Position numbers and translations under genes: made by a program | Source: Urechis unicinctus | Lineage: Eukaryota; Annelida; Polychaeta; Xenopneusta; Urechidae | NCBI GenBank assembly: GCA_034190875.2 | Contig: CM067358.1 | Coordinates: 54,102,767-54,166,766 of the forward strand | Direction: 5' to 3' | DNA: 64,000 bases | Notes under the pieces: model-generated | Database searches by the model: none | What the model was told of the DNA's origin: nothing | The model's input: the letters and a program-made list of their open reading frames with translations, nothing else | Part shown: in pieces, positions 16,219-58,689 of the stretch | How positions within the stretch are numbered: the first letter of the stretch is position 1 | How the letters are laid out: each line of letters starts with the position of its first letter

Positions 16219-16477
16219 CTAGTATATAGCTATATTATCGCTCGTAGGTTAACGGTCGGTTCCCCTTTCATTTTTATTCGTGTGATAGACATTATTGTAC
16301 TACAATGTCGTCTATTTGTAGGTATTGTATGTAGTCTATAGTTGTCGAAATAGGCAAACTAACTAGACCCATGTGGTTTTCGAAAATCGGACCACAGGGC
16401 AAGGAAACTTCACTCCATCCTCAACTGCGTTCGCTTTGTTTACAACTCCCGATCTTTCCAATTCCAGTACGAACTGA

Positions 16478-16527
16478 CGCCCTACAAGACGTCCGAGTAT
16501 ACATATTCATATTACCGACCGGGGCTA
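16478..16527 (+). mobile_element. Short TAGC-family transposon copy A (left end decayed)
   Basis: The segment starts GCCCTACAAGACGTCCGAGT after a degraded TAGC end and finishes GACCGGGGCTA. It matches copies D and H over its length. The right flank TACAAGTAT is the 9-mer later duplicated by copy B. No convincing left duplication is visible, so this copy is assigned by similarity only. Confidence 0.55.
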
Positions 16528-16536
16528 TACAAGTAT

Positions 16537-17370
16537 TAGCCCTACAAGACGTCAGTAGACGTCTTACTTTCTCAGAAAACGACGCAATGAAAAATAATTG
16601 AGATCGATTCAGACAACTCCCAAACACCAAACATACCAAAGTGATGAGTTATATAATGCAATAATGTTTTACGGACAATTTTATCCCTTTTCGGCGGGGG
16701 ATTTCATTCATGGTAATTATTTATAGTTCGATTAATTTGGGAAGCGGTAAAAAGTCCGAAACACAGCACATGTTTGTTTTCAAGTTCAAGACCACGTACA
16801 TCGCGCATGCTCAGAATGACGACTAATGCTAAACCCGGGGGGGGGGCACTTAAGTGTAAAGAGGTAGTATACATGTGCCGCGCGACCGGGTATGTTTTTT
16901 CGGCCTCTCGTCTTGTACGACGGTTTATACATTCGCATAGTACCTTGTACGACGGGGTATACTTTTTGCCATTCTCAACTTGTACAACAGGTACGGGTTT
17001 TCGAGGTCCCGCGGCACACCCCTATCCGAGTTAGGGTCAAGTGCCCCCCCGGGATGCTAAGGCAATGCAAATGAGGCGGCGGTAAATCACGGGAAATCAC
17101 GCGACCCAATATTTTTCCAAAATGGCGATCATGGTATCTTGCCTTTTCGGAAATGATGTATCGATGGCATTCCTTGAAGAATAGCGTTGAGTTGGGGTAA
17201 ATATTTTTGCGCGTAGGGACTGTTTGTAGTACAGGCTCTTGATATATGTTATTTTTTGGATGCGTAATTGAGCACCCAAGTGCGTAAGGCCACCAACTTT
17301 TCTTTAATGAAGCGCTCATACCGTCGTATCGTAACGGTATAAATTCATGTTACCGTTATGACCGGAGCTA
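16537..17370 (+). mobile_element. Long (834-bp) member of the TAGC family, copy B
   Basis: The left end is TAGCCCTACAAGACGTC and the right end is TTACCGTTATGACCGGAGCTA minus its first base; both are the same ends as the 54-58 bp copies. Exact 9-bp direct repeats TACAAGTAT lie at 16528-16536 and 17371-17379. The interior has no convincing ORF and holds a nested, unrelated element (16833-17053). Without the nested element the copy is about 610 bp, so it is non-autonomous as well, or the shell of a once larger element. Confidence 0.75.
16833..17053. mobile_element. About 220-bp non-autonomous DNA transposon with CCCGGGG termini
   Basis: The left terminus is CCCGGG plus a G-run then CACTT, and the right terminus is AAGTG plus a C-run then GGG: terminal inverted repeats of about 16 bp. 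The 7-bp direct repeat ATGCTAA flanks both sides (16826-16832 and 17054-17060). Inside, CTTGTACGACGG or CTTGTACAACAGG occurs three times at roughly 35-bp spacing (near 16913, 16948, 16979), like subterminal transposase sites. It is nested in the 834-bp TAGC-family element. The superfamily is not determined. Confidence 0.75.
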
Positions 17371-17894
17371 TACAAGTATACGAGCTGTTGTCTACCTGTC
17401 TACAATATGGAGTACACTGTTCCAGCTGCACAGCGAGGACAAGAATGGTCGAGAGTTGTAAACAGCATAGGCGATGTGGTAGGCAAAGTTTGTTTTCCCC
17501 CGAAGAAAACACCTTATTCAACGCAGACTCTGAAGATCGAGAAGGCACCACGGCCTTCAAATATATTTAAGTACCTTCTTAACAGCACTTCCCTGTTTAC
17601 CTTTTATATGGATCGCTGGGTCCAATCTGGTTTCATTCGTTCCAAATTGAACAAAACTAGTCCCATTCTAAACTGACGCCATGCGTGTGGACCAACAGGC
17701 TACGTGTTCCTTCCATCTAAGTGTCCTGATTAAACCGTCTGCTGCATGTACGATAAAGCGCAGTTTGAGAAGTGAGTTGCAAGTGGGTTCAAAGTTTATA
17801 CGTAGGAGGACCCAAACAAGGCCAATCTGTTCATGCGGTATTGTCACTTGTTGCCAATACAGCACTGGGTCCTCCCACACCACTCACTGTGTTG

Positions 17895-17965
17895 AAACTC
17901 CGCCTCTGACAGCGCCGTGCTATTTACTACTTTCGATCTCTCACATCCGCGTTCTAGATGTAGCA
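17895..17965 (+). repeat. Dispersed repeat, copy 1
   Basis: About 70 bp starting GAAACTCCGCCTCTGACAGC matches 50938-51005 in the same orientation with scattered substitutions, including TTTACTACTTT and GATCTCTCACATCCG. The edges and the element type are unknown. Confidence 0.7.
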
Positions 17966-18180
17966 TATACTGATCTGCCTGGAACAGATTCGGAAGCTCA
18001 GTTCCCAAATAGCACTCTTGAACCAAGTTGGGGAGCTTGCTGAATAGAGTAATGCTCTTTATGTTTAAAAAAAATAAGTCTATTAACATCGATCTCTGTC
18101 TCAAATCAGTAACTAGACTTCTTGTCTAATGCTAGACACAGGGAATTTACATTGTAAGGTACTAATTGTTAGGTTGGTTG

Positions 18181-18242
18181 TAGCCGTGCACGACGTTTAT
18201 TATTATATATATATATATTTATATTACCGTCGTGCGCGGCTA
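18181..18242 (+). mobile_element. Short (62-bp) TAGC-family transposon, copy C
   Basis: It begins TAGCCGTGCACGACGT and ends CGTCGTGCGCGGCTA, near-perfect inverted ends around a TA-rich centre. Exact 9-bp duplications GGTTGGTTG lie at 18172-18180 and 18243-18251. Confidence 0.85.
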
Positions 18243-18295
18243 GGTTGGTTGGTGCACCGGTCCCGGCCATTGGGTATAATATGCATACAAAACCA

Positions 18296-18349
18296 TAGCC
18301 CTACAAGACGTCTGAGTAGAAATTCATGTTACCGTTACGACCGGAGCTA
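18296..18349 (+). mobile_element. Short (54-bp) TAGC-family transposon, copy D
   Basis: It begins TAGCCCTACAAGACGTCTGA and ends CGTTACGACCGGAGCTA. Exact 9-bp duplications ACAAAACCA lie at 18287-18295 and 18350-18358. It is nearly identical, in opposite orientation, to the copy at 51639-51696. Confidence 0.9.
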
Positions 18350-19341
18350 ACAAAACCAAAGGTAAGGGATGTGTATGCATAATATGATCTTGATCCGTAT
18401 GATGCCCCCCACCCCCTCTCCCACCCCTGTTATAGCAAGGAGTTAAATAACTCAAGCTATTGGTTATAACTCCATGGTTATAGGCACTTATAATCAGATA
18501 ATGCGACTAACGTTGAAAAAACGAGAACTGCGGGGACGTACCATTGGGACCATTGCATTGTTTTTCCATGAAGTTAACGTTTCTATGGCTATAGAAATAG
18601 CACGAATTGCCAATCCATTTTACCATACATTGAAAACATCACCGTCAACCACACTGCATTCACAAACTGGTAAAATCTGACCATGTTGCTCGTTCGGCTA
18701 ATTGAAACCGAGCGACTATGTGCGCGGTCAGCTGATTAGCGCTGGCTTAGATAACGAAACTCATGTTTTCGCACGAGGTAAGCTGGGTATTGAATAGAAT
18801 TGAATACTTTTTTCCAGACTCGTCTGTATATACATATATAAATACAGTGGACCATATTCATACACACATTGATATACAACAATTCAGCAACTATTTCACA
18901 TGCGTATATTTAAACCAGTGTATCCGAATTTGTAAATGGGGTTAATGAAGATGAATGGCATCGAAATCGAGCTTTTGCGAAGCCCTCAAGCGACAACCCG
19001 TATCATCGCCAGGCCATAAGTAAGGTTATCTGATCACAAGCGTGACTGCATTTAATATATACATACACATCTTTATTATTGATATCTTCTCGTAGAGATT
19101 CGCCATCAATTTTCTGACCGCTTGGTATTATCGCTCACCCTTGCTAACTTGAGCGAGTATACGGATTGTGGGCCTTAAATTTCTATGTGTGCCAAAACTT
19201 GCATCTATTGTTGAGGTAGTCTTCAAACTCCAATGGTGTTAAATCTAGAATAAATGTTAATGCTTGCTCTTTTCCCTTAACTAGTTATTGTTTATCACAG
19301 ATTAACCCTACCTGTCTACATTTAATCAAATTAATGAAATG

Positions 19342-19463
19342 CGATGAAACCATATAATTCGCTCTGTTTTAGACGTTCAAGGTATCTGATGTGAATTGTG
19401 GATTCATCCATTGAATTGGATTCATTTGTCGTAGGACGTCTACATAGACATCCTGTAGAGCTA
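19342..19463 (-). mobile_element. Possible 122-bp TAGC-family copy E
   Basis: On the minus strand it begins TAGCTCTACAGGATGTC and continues with GTAGACGTCCTAC, matching the left end of the 834-bp copy B. The 9-mer AATGAAATG lies directly outside this end (19464-19472) and again at 19333-19341. The far end reads CATCG instead of GCTA, so it is either eroded or the second 9-mer is chance. Confidence 0.45.
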
Positions 19464-19665
19464 AATGAAATGAAACGTCTGTGCAGGGCTTAATTACAGA
19501 TATTATGGTTGTGAAGTTATTGTTCATAGATGTTTTATTTGTGTGCAGGATTTGATCAGCTTTAGCAAACCAAGCTGCAGCAACAATTGAGACATTGTTG
19601 TTCTTGGGGCTAATTTGTTGTGTATTGTGAGCAGGAAGCTGGGTCTCTAATTATCACCCAACATC

Positions 19666-22278
19666 ATGTCTAGATATGCCACTCTCTTATCATTCCGCCA
19701 TATCAGCAAGCTGTGGAACAAACCAACCATAAAGAAGCTGTCTATCCCCAATGAAACAGCGTCTTTTGTCAGCGATTCCTCTCAGCATCATCTCCTCGAC
19801 TTCTCGTCTATTCTTCTTCAGGATGGCTCTGATATCCACGATCTTCCCCTTCTCATTCGTCGCATGGATCCAAAAGACTTTCCCTTTGTTTCCATGACAA
19901 ATACCAGTGACACGATACGCCAAGCTTCCCTGGAAGATTTCATCTTCTCACAACGACTCAGCAACTGCAAAAACATATATGAGATTTTAGATTTACTTGA
20001 GGTCCCTGATGACATCTTTACTGCGGCTTCAGCAGCATTTGCTCTCCACAGACTGTGTCAGTTGAGTGTGAATTTAGGGGACAATGTTGACTATTATGTC
20101 AGAAAACCCTTGCTTGTGAAGCTGTGTCAAACCACTTGCAGTGGTCTTCCTCAACTGAGCAATGAATCAGTTATCAACCTTGTGGGATGCTACTTAAATT
20201 CATCTATTTTTGCCGATGGTTCGAAATTGTCTGTAGATTCAGAAATAGAGAGGAGAATAGCAGATGGTGTGTTTTCGTTGCCGGAAATTTGTCGTATTGT
20301 GGATCTGATTTGTAGTAGTACTGATTCCAACTTGTCTTTAGCCAAGAAAGCATGGACACATATTGGATGTCGAATCCATGATATTAACAATGAAAATTTG
20401 GCTCTGATCTTTAAGATGATGAAATACCCTAGTCCCAAGGAATCTTTCTTTTGGGGGGTATTGAGTCGTCGTTTTCAGTCATGCTGGTGGAAGCTAAACA
20501 GTACTGACATAGCCACCATTATGGAATCCCTGGCATTTAACGACAGATACCAAGTGCATATACTTTCAGCAACATCCAAATGGCTCTTCATGAACATCCA
20601 TGATGTGCCCGACGCAGAGCTCATACCAATTGTTGGGACATTCACACATTTTAAGTTCAGCAATGAAAAGCTGATCCACTCCTTGGAACGCTACATGAAG
20701 TTGAAAGTGGACCGCAGCAGCAAAATGCTTGTTGCTATGGTGATGGATCATTGTTGGAATCAGCGGTATCTCTCGACAATCATTTTCGATGCTGTTGCTA
20801 GTGATTTTGAGAGAAATGGCCAGGTCTATGATCCAACTGAAATTCACTTGGCACTGAGGCCATTTGGCTTGTTGAATTATTTACCGCCAAACTCTTACCA
20901 ATTCCTCACGCGCGTAGACACGATTCTGTTCAAGAAGTTCACAGACTTTGACTTGTTAAAGATGTTAGAGCTTGTGGCATCCTTCATGTATTTGGAGAAA
21001 TTTGCTATAAATCTCATCAGCAAATTGCAGGTTTCTTCATCTGTTTCTCGACTACAGTGTAAGTTTTTTGGAACCCCCTTTTTAACTTTAATCAAACCTG
21101 ACAGACCCTCATTTGGTGATGCTAAATATTGCGCTTTGATTCCCGACTAATCTCTTGATTTGTCTATACAGCTATTACGGATGTATCATTGCGGCAGCGC
21201 TATATTGAGTATTATCTACAGTTGCAAGTATCTACCTTAATTGAAATCCCTCATCTTTACCTTCATAATTTGATGGATCGCCTAGACCTCAAATTGGCCT
21301 TCAGGTGGAAGTGTAAGTATCCTCCCAATACCATCTTGCAATTGTTGCAAGCATTAATATATTTTTGTTCTTGACTTAGTTTGTCTCACCTGTGGGATAT
21401 AAGCGATTTTGTTTATTGCAGTCTGTGTGTAATTTGTTGTGCAGCCAGGTATGCCTCATTTCACAGGGAACTGGGCTCAGCTCTGTTCAAGCTCCTCTCT
21501 CCGCAGTGCCTACATGTCATGGCCAGCCCTGGCAGATCCCCCTATGTCATCGGTAATTCTTACTCACTTAAACTTCTTACTTAAAATCTCTAAAGTATTA
21601 AGGCTCATTTCAAGTGGTATTTGTAAGCCACTTGAATGTTAAAAAAAATCCTGTTGATTTGCATATTCATGTCTTGTGTGAAAGATTTTGAGGTTCTCGT
21701 GACCTCCGACGGGAAGATGATTCCTTTCTGCGTCCACAATTCCCACAAGTACAACTCTAGCACCGTGAAGTAAGGATGTGTTTCTTGGCTGTGACTTGTC
21801 AATGTTGTGTCTCAGATCCATAATTTCTGTCTGTTCTTAAAGCTGCAAGCTGGTACTTACTCATGGTCAGAATATTGAATGATTTTAATAGGCTAGTGTG
21901 ACCTGTGATAATCTTGTATGCCCCCATGGTCCTGCATTGCAGACTCGCCATCCTGATTGTGATGCCTGAATACTACTGTGTCAACCAAAAGCATTTGCTC
22001 GGAGAATACGTAGCTAAACATCGTCACCTACAAAAGATGTCCTACAAAATCATCCCAGTAAGTCACCCGTGTTCTTGTCCTCTTCTTTCTGATCATCCCC
22101 AATCTGTATGTTAGGCACTCTGAGATGACCCTTTGTTACTTTGCAGGTGGAATATGATGTGTTTCAAAATCAGCTGAAAGAAAAGAGTGAAAAAGAAGAG
22201 TACCTCTGTAGCTTATTGAAGCCCTACATCGTGTTTGATAAGGATGGCCCTGTTCAGATATCTCTTCAGGACCGGTGA
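19666..22278 (+). CDS. FASTK-family mitochondrial RNA-binding protein with RAP domain
   Basis: Six exons join in frame: 19666-21058, 21172-21312, 21445-21552, 21685-21769, 21943-22057 and 22147-22278 (TGA), giving 657 residues. The first about 28 residues are rich in Arg, Lys, Ser and hydrophobic residues with no acidic residue, as in a mitochondrial presequence. The body is all-helical repeat-like sequence (LSNCKNIYEILDLLEVPDDI; FALHRLCQLSV), as in FAST kinase domain-containing proteins. The C-terminus has the FAST/RAP pattern: SPYVIDFEVLVTSDGKMIPF, then a RAP core with HLLGEYVAKHRHLQKMSYKI and PVEYDVF (about residues 540-640). Family members (FASTKD1-5, TBRG4) process or stabilise mitochondrial transcripts; which paralogue this is cannot be told by eye. 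The ATG lies in a context with no upstream in-frame extension of note. A polyadenylation signal follows at 22504. Confidence 0.9.
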
Positions 22279-22503
22279 TATTCCCAATCCCTTGGAGATG
22301 GCCAACTCAAGTGATCATGCTGTAGATTGTTGAAGGTGTCCGTGATTATAGGGTCTTTTATGCAGTTCAACTTCAACACCTGTAATTATTTTGGTTTGAA
22401 ATTGAACTGAAAGCTTAGAAATATTGCTTAATGGGTTAGCTTGCTGTCAGATTAATGTGATTTCGAAATCGTGACACCAGTATTATAATATTTCTGGTTT
22501 GTT

Positions 22504-22509
22504 AATAAA
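22504..22509 (+). terminator. Polyadenylation signal AATAAA
   Basis: AATAAA lies 226 bp after the stop codon of the FASTK-family gene, in AT-rich sequence. Confidence 0.6.
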
Positions 22510-23269
22510 ATACTGTAAAACAGTAAACGTTATGATTTAGTCTTGCAATATCAATTTATTGAAAAATCAATGTCAGAGGCAGCAGAGATTCCACCGTGTG
22601 TGGCAAGTATCCGGCGGTCACCTGATCCCTCCACTCAAAACTCTGCCATACTACGGTGGTATGTTTTTCGTATATGCATATAAAAAAAAAATTCCAGAAG
22701 CATCCATTCCTTCTCAGTGGAATAGATAAAGTTGGGGATCTTACCCCTGTTGAATATGCTATGTGTCATCTGCATAGTAAAGGCATGGTTATTTACACTA
22801 ATGAGTACTTATGCTCATTTCCAAGTGACCTGCATATTGAACTATGGAAACATGTGTCCAATGTTTAGAACTTATCAATTCTTATCATTCAGTAGATTTC
22901 TGGTTAAATAAAGAATGCATTCTGAAAGATAAAAATAATTGCATATTTTCAATTTTTATTTCCATATATGCCTAAAATGTCAAAATTTTATGTGGCACCC
23001 CCACCTCCCACTCCTTACACCCTAACTTCGAAGATGCCCCCATGAATAGTAAGTCTAGCAATGAGACCCACTATTAACAGATCTGATGGCATCCAAGCTA
23101 TTTTGACAATCTTTTGCAGGTCTGTTTGTTATATTCCACTGTACACCTTGATTCGACATATCACCGTCCATGATGAATTGCCATGCGTTCCTCAAGGCTC
23201 TTATTGACAACTATTACCGTCTCTGGTGTGTGTGGGGGGGGTGGGGGGGGGGGGGGGGGGTGGTATTTG
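22510..23269. other. Intergenic, nothing recognised apart from a G-run
   Basis: No exon is seen. A 70-residue ORF at 22656-22868 shows no feature. A poly-G tract broken by single T residues lies at 23232-23261, just before the possible LTR. Confidence 0.4.
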
Positions 23270-23696
23270 TGTGACGTTAACAACTAGCCTGTCCGCTGAT
23301 GGCTCCTGAACGTATTGTAGGAATCTGAAGGGCTTCGTCTCCTCAGATTCAGCGGGTTTCCCCACCCCGATCTTGTTTAGGTATCGTACCAGAGAGCCAT
23401 GTTATCTCCCGCAAGTCTCCTACGCGGGAGTGAATACCGTCGTTATCACCACCACCACCAGCCAGTCTCCTGTACGGGAGTGAAGAGGACAGCAAGAAGA
23501 GGAGGGGGGCCAGTTCATGGCTCTTCACACAGTCGTATATAAGTGTCAGCTACCGAGTAGGCCTGCTACCCGCCAATTGTCAGTTCCGCAAAGGGGTGCT
23601 CCTTTATAGTCTCGAATAATACCACTCTGTATTACCATCAAATATAGTCAAATAAATATCGCTTGTTATACCAACCAGGTGTCTTTTTTGGGGACA
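23270..23696 (+). mobile_element. Possible solo LTR (about 427 bp)
   Basis: The segment starts TGTGACGTTAAC and ends TTTTTTGGGGACA, so it has TG...CA ends. It has a TATA box (TATATAA, 23536-23542) and an AATAAA (23651-23656) about 110 bp further on, the usual order of promoter and polyadenylation signal in an LTR. Two hairpin-prone units AGTCTCCT...CGGGAGTGAA lie near 23415 and 23465, and GAATCTGA/TCAGATTC forms a stem near 23323-23352. I see no target-site duplication and no internal retroelement sequence, so the call rests on layout alone. Confidence 0.4.
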
Positions 23697-23737
23697 ACCC
23701 TCGAGTCGTTTACAGTATGGCAAGTCTAGGGTTTAAC

Positions 23738-23787
23738 TAGCCGTGCACGACGTCTTATATATTTATATTAACGTCCGATCTGGGCTA
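23738..23787 (+). mobile_element. Short (50-bp) TAGC-family transposon, copy F
   Basis: It begins TAGCCGTGCACGACGTCTTA and ends GTCCGATCTGGGCTA. Exact 9-bp duplications GGGTTTAAC lie at 23729-23737 and 23788-23796. Confidence 0.85.
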
Positions 23788-23818
23788 GGGTTTAACGGGA
23801 CACCATCACGTGTACGTT

Positions 23819-23859
23819 TAGCCCCAGTCGGACGGTCTATAAGACGTCGTGCACGGCTA
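23819..23859 (-). mobile_element. Short (41-bp) TAGC-family transposon, copy G
   Basis: On the minus strand it begins TAGCCGTGCACGACGTCTTA and ends GTCCGACTGGGGCTA, so it mirrors copy F 31 bp away; together they look like a 126-bp foldback. Flanks GTGTACGTT (23810-23818) and GTGTATGGT (23860-23868) agree at seven of nine positions, consistent with an older duplication. Confidence 0.7.
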
Positions 23860-23869
23860 GTGTATGGTA

Positions 23870-25628
23870 CATGGTGCCTGAGGGGGGAGGAATACGATCG
23901 ATGGTTTCTGAGAATTGGTGCAAAGCTTAACATTCACTCGCCTTTAACGTCACAGACATGAATGCTTGAGACGGATCAAAGTTGTCTCTTTGATCAAAAG
24001 TCAAGTGGAAAACGCACTCGATTAAGAACTGTATACTCTGCGACTCAATTCTATCGTTAGGTCTGAAGCAGTATACTTCGACATCGCGCAAGCGCAGTGG
24101 GAAACAGCGGACGCTGTCGTTGCTTCCGCTTCATTGAACCTGGTGACGCAGTAACAAGTAGGTTATATATTTCTCCAGTTAAAACCATAGAGTATTATCA
24201 TTACTCATGGTTAAACAGTGTTGGTTTGTCGCCGAGACCTAGACGTCACTATAACGCTCTTAATATTGGATTAGTTGCTGGGTTGTGGGGGTGAGGTGTG
24301 GACACAGAAAATGCAACGATATCTCTGACAGGTTCAGTATCTCGGGCGAATATACTCTTGACTTACTTGCAAATGATCAAACACCTTCCTGGTCCACTTA
24401 CCAAAACATATTACTGACAATGGGAAGGAAATACGACGCCTCAATGTGCAACCATAGCAAAAAATAAAGTCAACGTGATGGGAAATGTGGACCACTTTAA
24501 TCTTTAATAACTCCAGCAATTATTGTGCGATGGTAAACATTTTAACATTTGCTGGTAGTTTAACTAATTATATTTTATCCGGAAAATGTTTTATTTACCC
24601 AAGCGCCCGGTCATGAAAACTTGGATCGCATATTGAATCGTCGATTGCAGTCTGATTTTCATCCTAGGCTATTGTTTTCACAAGTTGATATCAATGATGT
24701 GTACCTATTCTTAAGTCGACTGCGTCAATTCCTGCGCGATTAGCAAAAAACATAGTATCTAATGCTCTATATTCAATCGTTCAGAACATTTAAATCTCGA
24801 TAATGATGATGATGATAATGATGATGATCGTGATGCCCATGGGCATATACGGATAGCCATTATAGATACACAGATACGGATAGCCACGCGGTATATATAC
24901 CGCGTGGCTACATATATGTTGTCGTGGAGAAACATGGCGAACAATTCTTTTTTCATCAAAAGCAATATCATCATCATCATCACTTTCTAGTGGCCAAGAT
25001 AGATGGATAATGCAAATTGACGACTTCACGCAATCCATTTGTGCTATCGATGCACAAAATATTAGTTGGAAAATAATCAGGAAACTTTTATAACTCAGAC
25101 TTTTACCAAATTTCCCGATCTACCAATATACCTTTTGTTAAGTCGTCAAATGTCATAAATCACATTAAATCATTACCAATGTGGATGCGCCATCAGAAAA
25201 TATCCACGAAAACGACGGCATTTATCGTCGCCGTACGGAGCATGTCGAAAGTTCCTCTTCGTACGGTAGAGGTCGATGGGAAGGTCAGCTTAGCAGCGTA
25301 ACTCGAACCATCAAATTTGTGGATGCAGCAATAAGTGTTAATATCAACCTCACATTCCAAAACCCAATACTCCATTTCGACTTTTATCGACGACAATGTC
25401 ATAAAAAAACTGATTGATATGGCGCCATTACCAATTTCTCGAAATATTGCTTGATCCATCCATCAGCATAGATCGCTTCGATTCAACATCAACATCAATC
25501 ATACATTTATATCCCTTAATTTAGTATCGTTACTATTGTACAAAACAAATGACTTTTGCTACAGACCGTGGAATTCCGAGAGATTTTGACATCAGTACCT
25601 CGCTGTCAAGTCGATAGCTTGTGGCGCC
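23870..25628. other. Intergenic with palindromes and GAT repeats; 5' flank of the CABIT gene
   Basis: No exon is recognised. Notable are a GAT-type microsatellite at about 24801-24830 and a matching ATC run at about 24965-24983, which are inverted relative to each other, with two palindromes between them. ORFs of 60-88 residues here show no protein features. Confidence 0.4.
24881..24910. repeat. 30-bp perfect palindrome
   Basis: TAGCCACGCGGTATA is followed directly by its exact reverse complement. A second palindrome ATGCCCATGGGCAT is at 24833-24846, and ATACGGATAGCCA occurs twice just upstream. The TAGCC/GGCTA ends recall the nearby TAGC-family elements, but no 9-bp duplication flanks it. 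Confidence 0.85.
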
Positions 25629-27203: not shown

Positions 27204-27302
<99 letters not shown>

Positions 27303-27357
27303 TGAATATATACATATATATATACATATATATATATCTTTATTTATATATATTTGT

Positions 27358-27407
<50 letters not shown>

Positions 27408-30079: not shown

Positions 30080-30130
<51 letters not shown>

Positions 30131-31363: not shown

Positions 31364-34300
31364 CGTCAGACAACGTCACCTGAGAGCAGACAACGTATCC
31401 GTGTAAACACAAGGGGGTCACAGGGTGAGACGTTTGTGACTCCTATCCATGTTCCCTGCTGTGGCTCTATGTTCCTCAGGAGCACCGGGAAGATGTTCAG
31501 AAAGAGTTTGGGATTATATCGGGGATCATATACACATGAAACAGCAGAAATATCAGCCAGAGAAATATAACAAGATAACAGAATTTCAACTGTATCAGAT
31601 CAGTGAATGTTGGGTATTGGAGCGATGTTTTCATAGCTCGAAGATTGCCATTTCGAATGTTTGCGACGATACATTGAACTACCCATATGAAATTGTACCA
31701 AGGTACATGGCAAATGCTAGGTGCCTTGGATTTATATTTGACGAAAACAATCGCCGCGGTTGACATTTGAAGTTTTTTTTTTTTTACATTTACAATAAGT
31801 TAATGAGTTTTCTCTTTTAACTACACATTCTTTTCCGGAAATTACTTTCGATCATAAGGTCAAGGTCGTTTGGTAACGAGGAACAATCCCGCCACACAGC
31901 ATATGAAAAAGGAATGTCGTCAAGCCATCTTCGTTAGTTTGGATAAAACACGACTTACCGTAAATTTGGTACAATTATCAATTACTGCACGCTGTGGACG
32001 CGATTACCTTACACAAACGATCACCAGAAGTTGACTCCATTCCAAACTTTACTTCAGTATTTGTACATCAAGCAGTTATTTGTTTCCCGATATACAACCT
32101 CTGTATGAACGACATAAAGTGATAGACCACACAAGCAGTGTAAGGCCACGTCATCGTCACCTCTTCATGGATAACGGAAGGCTCCCTGTCTGCTGGCCGA
32201 GCGTTCGTTGGCCAGATTCGCATCGCCGACTTCCTTATAGCGCTCAAGCAGAGAATCAAGGTTCTATTCAAATGATTTACAAAAATCCACATACCTGTTA
32301 TGCGAAGGAATGACAGACCCTCATTCTCTCGGCGACTAGAGGTGTATGTGATAACCGAGCTTGACATGCATGCAATACAGAGAATCCAAAGTTCATAGGC
32401 CGTTGACGCGTTCACATTGTCTTCGCTACAATATAAGCCTTCAACCATAGCCCTTAAGGTTTTCGCCCCATCGTCAAAAGGCTGCTCACCACGTTGTCCA
32501 TGAACAAAATACTAACAGATATACTCCTTGCTGTTTATGTCCATGAGTCAGGTGTGTCGTCAGTCGGCTTTTCAAGGACAGCTTTTCGAATGATGGTTTT
32601 GTTGCGGTTACGGGTAGGACAATACGGTGCTTAATTGCGGTTATTAAGATATTAAATAAGGATATCAGCTAAATGATAAAGATATAATCGATGATAGGGT
32701 TCCAGTCTGGTTTCAATATGATCAGTCCACTCATGGCTTGATGTTATGATGTTTTGATTAAGCAGTAGGTATGTTTGTAGATTAATGATGACATTCTGAT
32801 GCAGCTTTTGGTTAGTTGGTTGCTTAGAGGTACTGACCCATTCTCTCAGCACCCACCCCCACCCCACAATCTTAATCCCCGAATTTGTCCAAATTTTGGG
32901 AACCCCCATTACAACTTCATGTAATCATAATGGTCAACGAAGGAATCGATAATCATAACGCATTTTTCAGTATCCAAACTTGCTGTCAGCACAAATTTAA
33001 CCACCAGAGGAAAGAGATCCTTTAAATAAATATAAAGCCACCATTGCTACGTCACATTTTATTTTAATAGCTGAGGTGTTAAGTGCATGTCAAATGACTG
33101 CACTTTCCTACATACAATTGTGTATGATATTAAGTGAAGTATGCATCTTGGGTATTTATAGTTACATTCATCAACATCAAAGTCTCCACATTAAAAGTTT
33201 CGAGACACACTAAGCAAATGTCAACATAACACATTGATAAATTAAAATATACTAGATAAGAATGAGCGAATAACTTCTGTTGCTATGAGACGACACAAAC
33301 AGATCATGATCCGCTGGTGATGCAACTCTAGAAGAAAGACAGATCCGCAGGTGATCCGACTATTAGATGACAGACAGATCATGATCCACGTGTGATACAT
33401 ATACAGGCAGATCATGACCTGGGGCTGATCCGACTAGTAGACGACACAGCAGAAGAGACCACACATTTCCTCAATTATCACCCACAACAACATAACACAA
33501 ATGACATGAGGAGTGACCCGGACATTGTCAGTGGGAATCACAAGCTGGTTCACTTATGCTGTTAACTACCAGGTATACCAATGTCATGTTAAACTAATGC
33601 TGCCACCTGCAGGGGTGGGGCAACCTGCGGAGGAGGGGCCACCTGCAGGGGGAAGGCGGGCCACCTGTAGAGGTGGAGCGGAGTCAGCAGCTATGAATCA
33701 ACAACCCATAATGCGCATATACAAATGAAAAAACCCAACAAAGCACAACTGCTAAAGCAACTCGGGTGCATCAAAACAATACAGGAGATATGGCATAGAA
33801 TCGTGACTGGCAAGTTGACCGCGGTTACGTCCAGTTCCCATCTATTAACATGCGTTTGATGCAAAGCATGATTCCCATGGATGAGTAACTCACAACAATT
33901 ACCTTCAATGTCAATGGAATGAAATCTATACAAAATTTCACTCTGCTGTGAAATTCAATTATTGGTCCAAAAATAGGTCCGGGAAATACATTAGGCTGGA
34001 TGCAAGATAAGTAGAGGGTCAGGGGTGAAATTTCATGCTCTTCTCGACTGCACAGTACCCAACCTTAACATCAACACTCCTCACAGACAACATCTGCAGG
34101 TAGATACTAAACTTGGTACATTCTACCTGTGCAAACAGAGTAGTAGAAACAAAATGCATATACATTGCCCTGAAGTCAACAAGACACTAAATAGTCTTTG
34201 AGGAAAGCTATTTCATGTATAACCCAGTCTCATACTCGACACAAGACTTCCTTAGTATGCATTCAATTTAAACACAATTGCCCTCTAGCACATATCCAAT

Positions 34301-34937
34301 TTAAACACAATTGCCCTATAGCACATATCCAATTTAAACACAAATGCCTCATAGCAAACATCCAGTTAAAACACAATCAACCCACATCACACACCCAAAG
34401 TGTGCTAGTACTGTTAGACACCGGCAACCTCACAAGCACCTAAATGGATGAACTAAACAGGTCAAACGAGGTCATCAACTACAAGTTACCCCCCAGGGAG
34501 CCCCAATGGCAACCCAGGGATTCAGAGCAATTTCAATCCAGTTCAGGCCTCCCTCTTGCATAAAAGCCGTGATAATCTGTGCAGTTTGACTAGAGAGAGC
34601 AGGTCTCTTACGCGCACTACTGCACCAGTGAGGGCACATCACATGCAGCATACAGGGAATGACCAGCCGTATAAGTCACGTGGCCAATCACTGTGGAGTC
34701 ATAAACGCTGGCCAAGGTCATGTCGTCATGACCAACAGGTGCATCTCAGCTATGCCCTTCGTCATTGCCATACGATGACGAGTGAATGCGGGGAAAGACA
34801 ACGCAAAGCGCTTGTAAATGAGACACTGATAAAACATGTCACAGAGTTCTCCACCACTTGGCCATGATATCAACATGATAAAGTCTGCAGGTAGTGGCCA
34901 GGCAGGGCAATGCAGTGTCACGGCGTTGAGGCTGGCG
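31364..34937. other. 5' flank of the esterase gene and 3' region of MOB2
   Basis: No exon is recognised. Short repeats include diverged units with ACAGATCATGATCC near 33295-33430 and a GC-rich run of CCACCTGCAGGGG-like units at 33600-33680. The right part probably belongs to the MOB2 3' UTR. On the minus strand a tRNA-like B box (GGGTTCGATGCC) is seen near 31139-31150, without a tRNA fold. Confidence 0.4.
34262..34395. repeat. 33-bp repeat, 4 copies
   Basis: Units contain CAATTTAAACACAATTGCCC then TCTAGCACATATC, with increasing divergence to the right. They lie just 3' of the MOB2 stop codon. Confidence 0.75.
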
Positions 34938-42833
<7,896 letters not shown>

Positions 42834-44440
42834 GCGTTGTTTGAATTTGTCTCCCCTGCGACGATAATTTCTCTAATCCAACGAAACACAGTAGACTTGT
42901 CCGCGATTGTTTGAATGGCTGCAATGCGTTCTGTCAACTACGCAGCAAGCAGCGCCCCAAATGAGGCGAGTAACGATGGGCTACAAGGCAGCCAGGCGAA
43001 TACCCTAAGCTTTGTAGGGAAGGAGGCTGGCTCAGTAAATATAGCTCCCTGGCTGATCGCCTACGAGTTTGCTGAGGTCGAAGCGGATAATCACTCCTCC
43101 CCTTCCTATAGAGCAGAGTCGTTTAATCAGAGTGGAAAAACCTAGCATAAGCTCCCTGTGGACAGTTGCTATCGATGTGCACCAGTTCAGATAGCAACAT
43201 CTAAATATGAGCAGAATAATATAACGCAGAGAGGTGTGAACAGAAGCAGTTCTGCGGCAGGGTTTTGAGACGCCCACGGGTCACTTTGTTTGTGACACTT
43301 GTGTGTTGGAGGTGTGAAGAAGCGTCGATCTCCCTTAGAAGATGTACTCATCGATTGATTGACACAAGACAACTCCTGGATGACTGGTAAGCGTAACTCA
43401 ATCAAGAAAGATGAAAATTGGCGCCAACTCTGTTCTCGTTTGGATGTTTCTCGCGACCGACCTCACTGCGCAGCAGATTTGCGAGCAAACAGTGCATCAC
43501 CCAATGACCCGCGGCTAATGTCGACGCTAGAAGACATTGACACCCAGGCTAGTATAATTGTTGCTCTTATCACTTAAACTATTAACTGGTGTACGATTCC
43601 TTCGGGATAAATAGCACTGCGATGACGCCTAGATGATTTGGAGAGCGATATACCATCGACATTGAGCAAGAGCGTAAATAGGCACATAACACTGCCTAGA
43701 ATCGCTTTGTCAATTTAAGCCAATCACAGGGCCAGAATATCAGCTGATGGCAGCGGATTGGCTATAAGCAGAACACACACCACACGATGCCATGTTATGT
43801 AAACATGGAACACGTGGTCAATGAGGTCACCTCCTATGTGTACCACGCGATCGACGTCGTGATTATCTTAACAATTAAGACGGCATTGAAGACATCAAAC
43901 ATAAACATACAGCTACAGGCGTATCTGTGTTGGTTGAAATCAGGCCACGATGAAGCCAACTACAAACTCATCGTATGTCACTGACCTTTTACCTGTGCAC
44001 ATACACACAACTATCCACAGATATAATTGCAGCAACATTCTCAACCCAATCCCCCCCCAAAGAGGCCTACTGCTTGCTTCAAACGGCTAATAACTGTGTA
44101 TCTACAGATGTCTAAAGGGAACTTGAAAAATCACACAACTGGAAAGTGACACCCCCTAACAAAACAGACTGAATGATGTGGACCGCCCGCTTGGCCAGCA
44201 AATTATGAAAAACTGCGCACAACCAGACAACAGCTGTCATATAGATGACGTAAACCGCGTGGTTTGTAACCGATAGAGAAAGGCTATCGTTCGGTCACAT
44301 CAGCCGTGATCTGTAGCACTCATGGCATCACATCACTTTCTTCATCATTATGAACTGACTGACATCGTAAATCACGATCGCTCACACGAGTGAGGCAATT
44401 AGGGCTGTGGTGGACGGAATAACTCGCCTCATGTTCACGA
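42834..44440. other. Region between the two MOB2 first exons, nothing recognised
   Basis: It presumably includes the promoter of the proximal first exon. Plus-strand ORFs at 42915-43145 and 43359-43577 have no protein features. Confidence 0.4.
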
Positions 44441-44535
44441 GTCATGTCCAATAAACTATACATATACACACACTAAAGTATATACATATCTCCAGAAGTA
44501 CACGCACACATACATATGTACATTTACGCATTGTA

Positions 44536-45312
<777 letters not shown>

Positions 45313-45323
45313 TATATACGTAC

Positions 45324-45355
45324 CAGAAAGTGAGCGTGTTGATCAAGTTGTTCAT
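45324..45355 (-). CDS. MOB2: Alternative distal first coding exon of MOB2
   Basis: The minus strand reads ATG with 10 codons ([10 protein letters not shown]) plus TG, then a donor GTACGT. The two spare bases fit the first base of MOB2 exon 41726-41563 exactly, giving [18 protein letters not shown] and an isoform of 306 residues. The phase is the same as that of the proximal first exon 42833-42625. A short hydrophobic N-terminus ending in Trp before a Lys-rich run resembles the vertebrate MOB2 start. The assignment depends on one splice junction, and no transcript is available here. Confidence 0.55.
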
Positions 45356-45439
45356 CTCGGTTTCTATCCAGCCGACCGTAGCAGGCAGTCAGATGACCAA
45401 ACCGCAGCGGACCACGTGGCTCCACCATCAAGCAGTTTT

Positions 45440-47084
45440 TCTTAGTTGAATATACATTTCGTGTTCGAGTATTAATATTATATAATTATATATCCGGAGC
45501 TGCGTTTTGTCGCTCTAGCCGGAGACAGCAATAACAGAACGTCCGTGATGATCACTGGAGTACGTCACGTCAATATGTCGACCGAGTTGTACATGACGCG
45601 GACGTCGGCCGACCGCTCGGCCTTATCAGCCCTGGCTTTATCACATGGTACACTGGGATGTTACCCTCTTTGGCTCACATACAGTGTCAATCTCTAATCA
45701 AACCGTGTCGAGGATTGACAACAAGACGTTGAGTACCCCGGGTTTGACCTCTGTCCACCAGTTACTAGCTAGCTAACGTGGGCATCCGCTTCGTACTATC
45801 AACAAGCTGGCGTGATGGGCGGGGGAGGGGAGAGGTATCTCAATGATGCGATGGTCCGGAGTCGGCACGAGAGCAAGCTGGAGACGTGGGCCTCGGCACT
45901 TGAGCTGAACCATTATGATAGCCGTTGTGGAGCGCGACGGGGGCACTCCCAGTGACACGACCCGGGCTGTATATGGAGAGGCCAGAGAATGGTACATACC
46001 AATGGTTTTGCATGCATCGGACAAGGCAACATTTCCTTATAGCCTTACTTCCTTAGTGCACTGAGTTTTACGCCCAATCCTCAAAGGCTGCTCAACCTTG
46101 GCCGGGGTTTTTTTGTTAGCCAAGATCACCTGATCAAAGGCCATCCAGGTCAGCACCCATTCAGCGAACGCGCTTGGTGTGCGCCTGACTCATGTATATA
46201 ATTGTTCTATATCAAGCAGTTACATGTCACTCATGGGTAGTTATGAATCGGAACTGAGGTCATGTGACAAAGATTACCCTCGGCTTTTCATTCAACAACA
46301 CTACTTCAAGGTAGTGTAGTGTAACGATTTGAAGATGAAAAGCGCCTTCATACGCAGAGCAATCAGCCCGCTGGGACAAGTCCCACGTAGCACACAGACC
46401 AATAAATTCACACTATTTTATATTAGCACAGTCATTCGTGTACAATTTCCTGTGTGTCATTCGATGTATCCAGAGACTTCGAACACTAAGCATACGTTAG
46501 CAACATCTGTGGCTTTCAACAAGTGAGATGATGACGTCATAGTACAGCTGATTTCATGCCAACCAAAAGACCGCGCTGGGAAAGCGGCGCCTCTAAGCAG
46601 CGGTTTCGAACACGCAAAACCGTCCAATCACCAACAACCCGAGTTCATGCGCGGTTGAAATTTGGCGATAAAGTGTTGATTTATTGTCTAATTTCGCCGG
46701 AATAATTCGACTGTTTTATCATTGCCAATGAACAAAAAAACATCGACAGCGAAGTCATGAATAATTACACATGAGAAATTCAAACTAATACATTGCGGCA
46801 ACATTCGCAGATTTAACACCAATGGTCATAACACGACCGACAAGAATGACTGATTCCTGGTGCACACGTTAAAATGCGAGCGATGATTTCGGATACCAAA
46901 AAAACCCAAAACATTCGCAGCTAAATCATTACTATTTTACCGTTGCTTACAGGGGGTGGGTGCAACAAATTCTACAACTCAAACTGCTCCACGTCGAAAA
47001 CACTTGACGAACTGCCATATAAGGCTGATAACTAATGTATTATCAGTGGCCATCGAACGGAACTTTATTCGAGTCTCATTGCAT
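45440..47084. other. Upstream region of the distal MOB2 exon, nothing recognised
   Basis: No exon is seen. An E-box-type palindrome CCACGTGG lies near 45405-45412, close to the distal first exon. The rest is unremarkable. Confidence 0.4.
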
Positions 47085-47590
47085 GGTTCCCCCTGTGGGT
47101 CTGGGGTAGAATAGGCCCACTTTATCCTCCTGCATGTCGTCAGAGGCGACTAATAGGGGGCAACCTGTTGGCCGTGGGTTGCGACTCGCGTCGGTGGGCA
47201 ATGGGTTCCTGGGGGTTGAGTGGAGCGGTCCTTTTGAGGGCCGTATCTGCAACACACCATTTAGGCCCGGATTTCGTCTAGACGAGAGGCTGGAATGGCC
47301 TGGTCCAGTCAATTGGCTGGTGGTGACTTGCCCTAGAATACTATTTGCATTTTATCTTTTTCATCATCATCCACTTTCATGTCCCTCTTTTTCCCCATTT
47401 ACCCTCGAAGGTCGAAATTATCTATTAACCTTTCTAGGCGCCATATAACACATACGAGTTGGTGTGCCGTTAAACCCTATACCCACTCACTCACTCACTC
47501 ACTCACTCACTCACTCACTCACTCACTCACACTCACTCACTCACTCACTCACTCATTCACTCATTCACTCATTCACTCACTCATTGCACG
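47085..47590 (+). mobile_element. SINE-like repeat with ACTC tail
   Basis: The head has an A-box-like TGGGTCTGGGG near 47096 and a B-box-like GGTTGCGACTC near 47177. The body ends GTGTGCCGTTAAACCCTATA and runs into about 25 ACTC units with some ATTC. A body followed by a simple-repeat tail is the layout of many animal SINEs. The A-to-B distance (about 80 bp) is longer than in a tRNA, so the head may not be tRNA-derived. A similar ending on the opposite strand (TTTAACGACACGCCGGC near 59128, with GAGT repeats after it) may be a second copy. Confidence 0.5.
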
Positions 47591-47650
47591 GAGAGGGACT
47601 TGAATAAGAATAATTAAGCGGGGAATATAGTATACGAGTAATAATTAGTC

Positions 47651-47875
47651 GGATAGGTCAACGTCGATATTGAATCAGTCTGGAAGGTCGCAGCCGAGCT
47701 TGAGTGAATGGGGAAGGTCACAGTTAAGACTGAATGAGTTGGGAAGGCCACAGCGAATATTGGGTGGGTTGGGAAGGTTAAATCTGAGAGTGAATGAGTC
47801 AGCGAGGTCACAAATGAGAATTAGTGAGTCGGTAAGGTCACAGCTGAGATTGAGCGAGTAGGGAAGATCACAGTC
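47651..47875. repeat. 30-bp minisatellite, about 7 copies
   Basis: Units read GGGAAGGTCACAGTTAAGAC then TGAATGAGTT with considerable divergence. It keeps a 63-residue frame open, but composition and divergence give no sign of a gene. Confidence 0.8.
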
Positions 47876-47879
47876 GCTG

Positions 47880-50800
47880 TGATTTTTAGTAATTACGAAA
47901 GGTTTAGAGGCGCAACCCTTCCATCCCCATGAGGGAAGGCAAATACAGGCCGAAAGGCCGCAACAACCAGCCTGCAAGCAATCAATACAAGATACAGTCG
48001 CAACAACACAGAGCCAACGACCCAGTCCGTGCAGGATAATTCAGTCTATTTTGGGAGCGATGAAAGATACAAAGATAGGCGTCTCTCATATCGGTGTGAA
48101 ATCTGTATCCGCTTTAAGCGCTAACGCCTCAACCGGTGCTTATACGATTCAACGACACAAGACGCATCGACTCGCACTGAACGGCCTCTGGCAAGTGACG
48201 GCGTTAAACCAAATTGATTAAACCACGTCAATTGATGTGGAACACAATTGCGGATCACTAGCGTTAATCTTATACCGAACGTAAGAGTATATCTAAGGGT
48301 AGATGGCATCCGACTCGGTCATTTTCTGTAGCTGTCGAATGTCAGACCGCGCGTTGCACATACAAATAAGGCAGAAGAAGCTGGGGTGTGTCTACATTAT
48401 ATAGCTCTACAGCGCAGCAACCAGCTGCAATCACAACTTATCGATGCAATCGGGGTAGCTTTGGGTTAATCTATACCAGTTGGTTTATCATTTCATAGAT
48501 ATGCAGCAATTCCTATGCACTTTGAAATAACAGGAAACATGCATTTTGTTAAAGATGCATTTTTAGTAGTGATTTTTAGTAATTCATTTTCGGATTCCAT
48601 CTTTGTCTTGTTGCAACCACCCGTTGAGAACACTCTAAAGGCAAGGTAAGGTTACTGGCCTCTCAACACAACAAACAACTTCCTAAATACCATTTGGACA
48701 GCGGTGGCATTCTAGGACCACCACTGAATTGTGACCAGTAGACCACACCAAGCCTAATGTGTTATTATCAGCATGGATGCAAAGGAGACTCTTGACCATG
48801 GCTGTGATATTGTTCAATATCTTGCACTCCAAACTAGTATCACAGCCTTGAATGGTAGTTTCCGGTTATATTAAGCTACTAAAATTACTTCAGTTACCAT
48901 TTTTTTGGGTATCAGGAACCCTAGATCTTCAATAAGTCATTGTTTTTAGTGCAACGAAAACATCATTGAACTTGTTTGCTAAAACAAGAAAATGTAAAGC
49001 CAACAGGTCTAGTAATTTAGAGCAGGAAATTCAATCAGCCTGGTATTACTACTGAAACTCTGCATTCTTGGCAGGTTGGACAAGTAAGGGTATCTACCAT
49101 ATGCCACTGTGGTTTGTTTGTTATGTTCTGTCATAAATATACAATCAGACTTTGTATACGTCATTAACGGAACCTGATTTTTAAAGATAGCTATGTCATA
49201 AGTTCCTTTTCAGAGCAGAAAGTCAATATTTTATGGGTGAATTGCACCTTTTCTAACTTAGTCTGACTTGTTTTTTTTCACGAGCAAATCAATAATATCT
49301 GGACACACCCCAAGCAGCAATGATGGGGTCAATGAGTTCCTTCATCCCTGTACTCCTTCCCCTATAGCACCCACCCTTAAATCCCAACCATCTAAGGATT
49401 CTCGGTCTTCACATCAGATGTTCACAAGCTGAAAAAGTATGGGTATATACCTCTGCCTTGGTCTACATTTAGATTGGGGGCCCTGAGCCACCTCCACACC
49501 CTTCCAGATACTAAAAACTTTGGTTTTGAGGTAAAGTTTATGCAGCTGAGCAAGCCGCTATCTCTGTTTGTATCTCTATACATTGAGTCGTCATCTGGAG
49601 ACATTCATTAAAATGTTTGGCAATAATTGCAGTATTATTATCTTTCCATACACAGTTGGTGAATTGGTAATGACATTAAAGGATTTGTTACTGGTTTGAA
49701 CAGCTGACAAAAAGAGCTCACATTTTTAAAAAACAAAACACCACTGACACATGCAAAATAGTCCCAACAATATATGCAAGTAACAGTTGCTGTTAGGAAT
49801 AGTGTTATAAGATCATATGTGGGGGTAAAATTCACACTAACCTAGTCTGATAGTAACATGCATTACAGGCACTCAAGGTTTGAAGATTTGAGGTGACAGT
49901 CATTCTTGAATGAAACAATAATAGATTTGGTCATGGTATATAAAGAAAGCATAATGTAAAACACTAAAAAAATACCTAAAACACTATAGGAAAGATATAT
50001 TGATCTAGTTTTCCAGGAGTTTGATTGAGCTGCTATGATTTGCTCAGGTTTTTAACAATATTTTTTTTCTTGTTAAAACTAGTCGAGATGGGTCTTTCAA
50101 GACAAGTTATCTGTGCAAACAAGTCCAAAAATTGGGCAGTATAATTTTCAATGATAGGTCCGCGAGTAGCCCAAAAGATCAACCGTCAATCGGGTACTCC
50201 CTTGTTGGTCTAACAGGAAAACCCAATTTTATCTGTAGATTGACAAACATGCTTAACTTATCATCACTTATCATGTTAAAAATACGTACTGAGAAGAATT
50301 TAAAGCCACCAACAGTGAAAGAACTGACTGAATTTAATTGATATGAGTTTTTTTTCAACCAATCTCCGTGCAAATCTTGATATTCGATTAATAGCTAACT
50401 TTTCAGCGAAATTCCACTCTGAATTCTGGTAGTTGCCAACAACCGTATCTTGCATGACGTTGTCGTAAACGACCGCGCGGAAGTTTTGATCATACCATTA
50501 TTGTCATTATCTGCCTGATAATACATTTCACAGGTGAGTCAATTTATACTAGATATATACTTTATAACTTTCCAACCTAGTTGCCTTTTCCTCTCCCTTA
50601 TTCAGTATCATAACAAGTCTGTTTCCAACTGACTTACGCTGCGCAATCTCGCCGCCATATTGGAAAATAGATGGAAAAGTTAATCGTCTCCCACATTTTA
50701 GGCGATTATGCATATTTACAAGTTATTGCACTTGCTGAGACTCATTCACCATACATAATACTGATTACTCATTAAATTGGACTTGTTACATCTAGTGGAC

Positions 50801-50930
50801 ATCGTGAAGTTAAGGTCTTATTATCGAATTTTCTACATTGGCGAAGCCATCCTCAAGAACCAACAGGGAGCACAAGCTCCACTTGGTTCAAAAGAGCTAT
50901 CCGTGAGAGAGCATCACCAAATGTTAGACA
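47880..50930. other. Gene-poor region
   Basis: No exon is recognised. It contains the miR-2-like hairpin candidate at 48790-48862. A YY1-like motif CCGCCATATTGG near 50652 could mark a promoter, but no gene can be tied to it. The ORF at 50777-51097 lacks an ATG start and overlaps a dispersed repeat. Confidence 0.4.
48790..48862 (+). ncRNA. Candidate miR-2-family precursor hairpin
   Basis: GGCTGTGATA (48800-48809) and TATCACAGCC (48838-48847) form a perfect 10-bp stem around a loop of 28 nt. TATCACAGCC is the conserved first ten nucleotides of invertebrate miR-2/miR-13, and in that family the mature form lies on the 3' arm, as here. Outside this, ACCAT pairs with ATGGT across a 4-nt bulge. 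Against it: the loop is long, the lower stem is weak, and no miR-71 or other miR-2 copy, usually clustered, is visible nearby. Confidence 0.25.
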
Positions 50931-50937
50931 AAGAAAC

Positions 50938-51005
50938 TCCGCCTCTGACAGCTCCGCACTGTTTACTACTTTTGATCTCTCACATCCGAGCTGTAGAGGC
51001 GAAGC
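50938..51005 (+). repeat. Dispersed repeat, copy 2
   Basis: About 70 bp matches 17895-17965 in the same orientation (ACTCCGCCTCTGACAGC, TTTACTACTTT, GATCTCTCACATCCG). Sequence downstream diverges. Confidence 0.7.
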
Positions 51006-51638
51006 GCCGCCTGCGAGATTTTGGAGCTTCCGAAGTCAAAACGACCGATGAACTCGCTAAAAACTTACCAAAGCCCTCCAAGAAAAAAAATTTGTGACAA
51101 AATGAAAGATTATATCACAAAATGACACGAGGACTGTTTCTATTACTACAGTTTTGTCTAATTGTTCTGTTTGAGCACTAAAATACGGCACATCATGAAA
51201 CTTTGTTCAAAAACTCAACATGGCCGACTCCCACAATGCAACATAATGGAGTTAATACGTTAATACACTATGACATTGCTCATGTTTTCGATTCGCGCGG
51301 TAGCCATGTTGGACAACAATTTTGAAATTGTGTTGGATTTTCGTCGATTCTGTGGGTTGAGGAGTATGACTGTTGTTGCACTCTAGGCAAGATTGATGGT
51401 AAGACATTTATGGATATGAAAATCTATGTTTTTTAAACTGTCCCTTGTCTGCATTGCGAGAAGGAGCAAATTTGCTTCTAATGCTATAGATTCTGCCATA
51501 CGGACCCTCGCCCCTAAGATGTCATCAGATCATTAAAACACCAGCGTGACCAGGGGCGAGTTGCCTTGCCTACACCAAATGTGAGACCGAGGTTAAGCAT
51601 TGGAATACGGACGTTCCTTACTGACTTAGTTCAAAACC

Positions 51639-51696
51639 TAGCTCCGGTCGTAACGGTAACATGAATTTATACCTACTCAGACGTCTTGTAGGGCTA
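51639..51696 (-). mobile_element. Short (58-bp) TAGC-family transposon, copy H
   Basis: The plus strand starts TAGCTCCGGTCGTAACGG and ends AGACGTCTTGTAGGGCTA, the reverse of copy D at 18296-18349. Exact 9-bp duplications TTCAAAACC lie at 51630-51638 and 51697-51705. Confidence 0.9.
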
Positions 51697-51709
51697 TTCA
51701 AAACCAAGG

Positions 51710-56520: not shown

Positions 56521-56539
56521 TCACCACCTCCATTTTCTG

Positions 56540-58680: not shown

Positions 58681-58689
58681 TGCTATGTC

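Follow-up and report, generated by a model that had tools for sequence, protein, structure and literature searches.

Ultrashort sequences with 9-bp target site duplications in a 64-kb stretch of Urechis unicinctus DNA: a probable family of MITE-like transposons

Background

Miniature inverted-repeat transposable elements (MITEs), whose length generally lies between 50 and 800 bp (PMC6171319), are non-coding, are bordered by target site duplications and occur as several similar copies presumably dependent on the transposase of another element. The same features characterise a repeat family of which seven copies were counted within a stretch of 64,000 nucleotides from the annelid Urechis unicinctus (GenBank assembly GCA_034190875.2, contig CM067358.1, positions 54,102,767 to 54,166,766), hereafter called the window. 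Unlike MITEs, the copies of this family measure 41-62 bp, one 834-bp relative excepted, and all but one of them (copy C) are devoid of inverted repeats longer than ~5 bp. Our analysis suggests that they are probably non-autonomous cut-and-paste DNA transposons of an ultrashort, MITE-like kind.

The internal eliminated sequences (IESs) of Paramecium have TA ends. They resemble the present family in being transposon-derived and often very short (many are ~45-66 bp long), and in being handled by a transposase-like complex for which a loop down to ~45 bp has been proposed; they differ in that their shortness is ascribed to decay after insertion, that the constraint lies on excision, and that they belong to a ciliate germline (PMC3464196). 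A minute, artificial version of the mariner element Mos1 is likewise a very short transposon, able to move in vitro without host factors (PMC2642840). At 122 bp, however, it is about two to three times as long as the copies described here, and it duplicates TA.

Duplications of 9 bp, as found here, are made by maize Mu, of the MuDR/Mutator type (PMC2774946), and fall within the 4 to 10 bp given for the IS256/MuDR group as a whole (PMC10045372). Mu differs in its terminal inverted repeats of ~215 bp (PMC2774946), the family having none that long. AcademH elements, reported from animals and fungi by the title of a study cited in PMC10045372, generate duplications of 9 or 10 bp (PMC10045372), a likeness that concerns duplication length alone. 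Merlin / IS1016 elements duplicate 8 bp (PMC10045372), a length close to the exactly 9 bp observed here.

Family members and their target site duplications

A perfect 9-bp duplication was present in five of the seven copies (the 834-bp copy, C, D, F and H). Members and duplications were located as follows, in window coordinates.

16477..16527, plus strand: copy A, 51 bp, a short relative of the D/H type, with AC instead of TA as its first two letters
16528..16536: left duplication of the 834-bp copy, 9 bp, TACAAGTAT, also adjoining the right end of A
16537..17370, plus strand: long copy of 834 bp (B), with the same two ends as the short copies and an exact 9-bp duplication
17371..17379: right duplication of the 834-bp copy, 9 bp, TACAAGTAT
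18172..18180: left duplication of copy C, 9 bp, GGTTGGTTG
18181..18242, plus strand: copy C, 62 bp, flanks identical at 9 of 9 positions
18243..18251: right duplication of copy C, 9 bp, GGTTGGTTG
18287..18295: left duplication of copy D, 9 bp, ACAAAACCA
18296..18349, plus strand: copy D, 54 bp, flanks identical at 9 of 9 positions
18350..18358: right duplication of copy D, 9 bp, ACAAAACCA
23729..23737: left duplication of copy F, 9 bp, GGGTTTAAC
23738..23787, plus strand: copy F, 50 bp, flanks identical at 9 of 9 positions
23788..23796: right duplication of copy F, 9 bp, GGGTTTAAC
23819..23859, minus strand: copy G, 41 bp, the shortest, with flanks GTGTACGTT / GTGTATGGT identical at 7 of 9 positions
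51630..51638: left duplication of copy H, 9 bp, TTCAAAACC
51639..51696, minus strand: copy H, 58 bp, flanks identical at 9 of 9 positions
51697..51705: right duplication of copy H, 9 bp, TTCAAAACC

Shared ends were thus found at unrelated sites and in both orientations, five copies being on the plus strand and two (G and H) on the minus strand. An earlier examination of the letters by themselves (the sequence-only reading) had claimed exact 9-bp repeats around C, D, F and H and an imperfect pair around G, and both claims were borne out. Its view that these are true insertions rather than local duplications is supported as well by the 9-bp duplications and by flanks that vary from site to site. 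Tandem or local duplication was rejected on the same ground, the sole 9-mer shared between copies being TACAAGTAT, common to A and the 834-bp copy. Less favourable was the outcome for the piece with which the sequence-only reading had opened the family (from 16478): the flanks of copy A agree at only 4 of 9 positions, its left flank being unmatched and its right flank being TACAAGTAT, and its first two letters depart from the family. The earlier reading was correct as to the short copies but did not name the 834-bp relative at 16537-17370, with its identical ends and perfect duplication; TAGCCCTACAAGACGTC at 16537 forms the left end of this one copy, and GACCGGAGCTA, which terminates at 17370, its right end. 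Relative to D and H, the long copy is 94 and 97 percent identical over the final 34-35 nt and 92 percent identical over the initial 22-23 nt.

Structure of the ends

The left end consists of a block of ~17 nt, TAGCC[C/G]T[A/G]CA[A/C]GACGTC, from which C departs by a final T in place of C, and A by its initial AC. The right block is longer (~25-30 nt) and reads ATTyATrTTAcCG...CGAccGGrGCTA in most copies; G is without the TA-rich part, F has TTAACG, and C ends in a left-like sequence. Together the two blocks fill nearly the entire element, in keeping with the earlier statement that there is almost nothing besides the two ends.

Inverted identity between the two ends is limited to TAGC in the 834-bp copy, D and H and to TAGCC in F and G, after which they diverge; in A it amounts to GCCC, following the two changed letters. 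Only in copy C do the ends form a genuine terminal inverted repeat, with 14 of the first 15 letters in agreement. As the left and right blocks differ, the ends are asymmetric in every copy but C.

End profiles recovered seven left ends (E 3.4e-5 to 0.0011) and seven right ends (E 5.6e-5 to 0.18), including both ends of A (left E 0.0011, right E 0.00028), whereas the best hits in the reversed window had E 3 (left profile) and 1.4 (right profile). These profiles were built from the same seven copies, so that the figures show separation and not discovery. Left ends fell into two subfamilies, one with A, D, H and the 834-bp copy (TAGCCCTACAAGACGTC) and the other with C, F and G (TAGCCGTGCACGACGT).

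Duplication length and chance

Pairs of TAGC...GCTA spaced by 30-70 bp occur 24 times in the window, a list that contains neither A (which starts with AC) nor the 834-bp copy (which is too long). Flank identity among these pairs was 9, 9, 9, 9 and 7 of 9 for the family copies C, D, F, H and G, respectively; none of the remaining 19 pairs exceeded 4 of 9 (range 0-4). In a third-order Markov null of 200 sequences, pairs spaced by 20-200 bp yielded a mean of 0.005 perfect cases and a maximum of 1, against four in the real sequence. A chance origin of the flanks was rejected on both counts. When pairs up to ~6000 bp were considered, exact flanks of 7, 8, 9, 10 and 11 bp gave 1, 3, 5, 1 and 0 matches. 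The five 9-bp matches were C, D, F, H and the 834-bp copy; the three 8-bp matches and the 10-bp match all begin at 57345 inside a 45-bp tandem array, the sole 7-bp match lies at 51821-51920, and none of these is a family copy.

All 256 four-letter inverted ends were also run on the real sequence, with a low-complexity filter that dropped C and D and left TAGC with two matches. Other ends retained after filtering were CTCA with five (8776-9030), ATTG with three (34277-34333), TGGC with two (58118-58198) and TAGT with one. The CTCA, ATTG and TGGC matches are overlapping sets; those of CTCA and TGGC sit in listed tandem arrays, and judging from its spacing we take the ATTG set to be an array too. 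The TAGT match is a 115-bp TAGT...ACTA stretch at 53380-53494, bordered on either side by the same 9 bp, CATATCCGC, without mismatch. It is perhaps another family of the same kind, although we estimate that chance alone would produce about one case of this sort when all 256 four-letter ends are considered.

It could be supposed that no transposition occurred, and that the copies reflect chance, or short palindromic DNA copied by template switching or repair. C is indeed a strong hairpin (folding z -5.58), and simple and tandem repeats abound in the window. However, D, F, G and H fold unremarkably (z 0.99, -0.96, -0.77 and 0.37), and exact 9-bp flanks are confined to family members at a frequency far from the null (0.005 versus 4), so that this explanation is scarcely credible.

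The motif GGTT/AACC lies inside four of six duplications (p 5e-5 with the motif fixed, ~0.014 when any 4-mer is allowed), which is only a hint of a target preference. As a control, the 17-nt left block was found to match 12 viral and at least 119 prokaryotic stretches. None of the 131 listed stretches, some of which end near the match, had GCTA within 4 kb together with flanks identical at 7 or more of 9 positions; in view of this, these matches were taken as chance and not as family members.

Probable transposition of the short form

Copies D and H align with 54 matches, no mismatch and a single 4-bp gap, and this near-identity was directly observed at sites 33 kb apart with different duplications. 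Both carry the junction TGAGTAG between their end blocks, and A, which aligns with H over 44 matches, 7 mismatches and 7 gap columns, has CGAGTA. Neither TGAGTAG nor GAGTA is present in the 834-bp copy. Such likeness between D and H at separate sites, together with a junction missing from the long copy, suggests that the short form itself moved: copying or movement of an already short element to new sites seems the simplest account.

Shrinkage in place offers a different explanation, according to which each site received a long element whose middle was later lost in situ, for instance by incomplete gap repair after excision of a sister copy, the short copies never having moved. It is compatible with the 834-bp copy, which carries the family ends and an intact duplication, and it dispenses with the need to loop 41-62 bp. 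F and G, identical over their first 22 nt and alike at their ends but different in the middle, would fit shrinkage in place as well as movement. Independent deletions, however, should give different junctions, while D and H share one internal junction at two distant sites and A has a similar layout. That junction is absent from the 834-bp copy, though an unseen long parent could hold it; failing such a parent, shrinkage in place would have had to produce one and the same junction at least twice. On balance we consider shrinkage in place unlikely.

Element length and end synapsis

For bacterial cut-and-paste transposons, a minimal in vivo length of 64-70 bp has been given (PMC3464196), and all six short copies, at 41-62 bp, are below 64 bp. 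According to the local-concentration equation of PMC3687335, the validity of which is doubtful at such lengths, free looping of 41-62 bp is negligible; the transposase would then have to bend the DNA sharply or to dispense with an ordinary loop. In the case of Mos1, the transposase bends each end by ~90 degrees (PMC2642840). For Paramecium, it was proposed that no loop is needed to excise IESs of 26-30 bp and that those longer than 44 bp use a very tight one, the class next above 26-30 bp being nearly absent and supposedly badly handled (PMC3464196). G (41 bp) falls between two of the IES size classes, and its imperfect flanks make it a weaker case than F, D, H and C.

It is conceivable that the insertion of complete 41-62 bp elements by a eukaryotic transposase proceeds without an ordinary loop, the ends being held side by side on one sharply kinked short rod or paired between neighbouring copies. 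We regard this as a tentative proposal, and rather improbable as it stands. Under such a loop-free reading, the close pairs formed by A and the 834-bp copy, by C and D, and by F and G would be the trace of end pairing.

A further alternative is that of introner-like or IES-like elements, transposon-derived short inserts whose spread depends on their removal from RNA or from a somatic genome. Duplications of 3-9 bp and terminal inverted repeats are known from some introner families (PMC9860276), and the sizes of Paramecium IESs peak at 26-28 and at ~45-46, 55-56 and 65-66 bp (PMC3464196). Against this alternative, the copies end in TAGC...GCTA and no splice-site rule was seen in them, and no copy overlaps an open reading frame (ORF) with a Pfam match among the 20 scanned of the 51 listed ORFs of at least 110 aa. 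Genes of the window, moreover, look animal-like (FAST_1, Mob1) and not of ciliate type. Such an origin is very improbable.

Proposed mechanism

Returning to a family of ultrashort, MITE-like DNA transposons as the probable interpretation, an unseen transposase, presumably of DDE type and acting in trans, would insert the elements by cutting target DNA with a 9-bp stagger. Its needs would be small: TAGC termini, the ~17-nt left block and the different right block of ~25-30 nt. The elements would have shrunk to scarcely more than these two blocks, and the shrunken form would then have kept transposing as such. Since the bending length of DNA is far above 41-62 bp, we infer either strong bending by the transposase or by a host bending protein, or a synapsis without loop.

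Several points weigh against this interpretation. The evidence comes from seven copies in a single 64-kb window, in which no autonomous copy was seen and the Pfam scan of 20 of the 51 listed ORFs gave no transposase. One flank of A is missing and the flanks of G are imperfect, and the right end of C, being left-like over the last 15 nt, scores only E 0.18. The minimum of 64-70 bp cited above argues against ordinary looped synapsis at 41-62 bp. Finally, the putative movement of the short form leans mostly on two copies, D and H, A being more distant.

If this is correct, elements of 41-62 bp would define a natural minimum for the requirements of a transposase, and the way in which transposon ends meet would become testable where the intervening DNA is too short to loop. 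MITE programs that look for 50-800 bp and clear inverted repeats would presumably miss G by its length and most other copies by their asymmetric ends, and such elements may be overlooked as a source of small insertions of ~50-71 bp (element plus duplicated 9 bp).

Superfamily relationships

A link to Mutator- and Merlin-like elements had been put forward in the sequence-only reading on the strength of duplication length, and this remains its only basis. The MuDR half of the proposal agrees with the 9-bp duplications. The Merlin half agrees less well, since the three exact 8-bp matches all lie in the tandem array at 57-58 kb and none belongs to the family; AcademH, which had not been considered, fits also. 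As far as the letters allow, the 9-bp duplication thus fits MuDR and AcademH, and Merlin less well.

The Repbase rule for assigning non-autonomous elements to a superfamily relies on equal duplication length and on alignment of the first 11 positions with at most one mismatch (PMC4455052). Three mismatches in 11 were counted by eye between the two left-end subfamilies, which would not be joined under this rule by their left ends alone. Searches of open-licence papers yielded nothing relevant to the end sequences or to names of the 'micro-MITE' style, and no Rfam match was obtained in the window at gathering scores.

Neighbouring insertions and the 834-bp copy

Only TACAAGTAT lies between the right end of A and the start of the 834-bp copy, so that the long copy inserted at the very 9 bp abutting A. 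At 16477-16536 it is as if one target site had been used twice, by A and by the 834-bp copy. With elements removed, the distance between neighbours is 0 bp for A and the long copy, 44 bp for C and D, and 22 bp for F and G. Three gaps of at most 60 bp among seven random points in ~63 kb have a probability of 2.5e-6 (2,000,000 draws), the cut-off having been picked post hoc. Close pairs could arise from hot spots, from a target preference near existing copies or from end pairing between copies.

Within the 834-bp copy, a nested element of 220 bp (16834-17053) has inverted ends CCCGGGGGGG...CCCCCCCGGG, i.e. CCCGGGGGGG(GGG)CACTT, and flanks ATGCTAAA/ATGCTAAG that are alike at 7 of 8 letters; judged by this organisation, it is a DNA transposon of a different type. 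The only listed ORF of at least 110 aa in the long copy (16975-17349, minus strand, 124 aa) had no Pfam match, and hence nothing in this copy resembles a transposase source.

A hunt with the end profiles across the window revealed no convincing member beyond the seven. One degenerate sequence was recorded:

19431..19463, minus strand: degenerate lone left end, weakly similar to the initial 31 nt of the 834-bp copy

Its score was equalled by 8 of 20000 random 60-mers from the window, among which family copies may be included. The left-end profile recovered this site as 19443-19463 (E 2.4); together with a second weak left end at 19470-19490 on the minus strand (E 0.52) and further matches with E >2, it is left as fossil or chance. 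A 122-bp candidate at 19342-19463, which takes in the degenerate left end and is bordered on both sides by exact AATGAAATG, was not counted as a member because its right end is unlike the family and its 9-mer is low in complexity.

Genomic context

Pfam matches marked one ORF of the window as FAST kinase-like (PF06743, E 9.1e-11) and two exons as Mob1/phocein (E 8.3e-17) and alpha/beta hydrolase (E 2e-15), respectively, and the gene set looks like animal nuclear DNA. Tandem repeats include a large 41-bp array at 12861-14860 (end estimated), a second 41-bp array at 38937-39582 and a 45-bp array at ~56512-58754. An array of 33/66-bp units at 8457-9416, with reading open on both strands, is probably either a repeat-coding stretch or a minisatellite.

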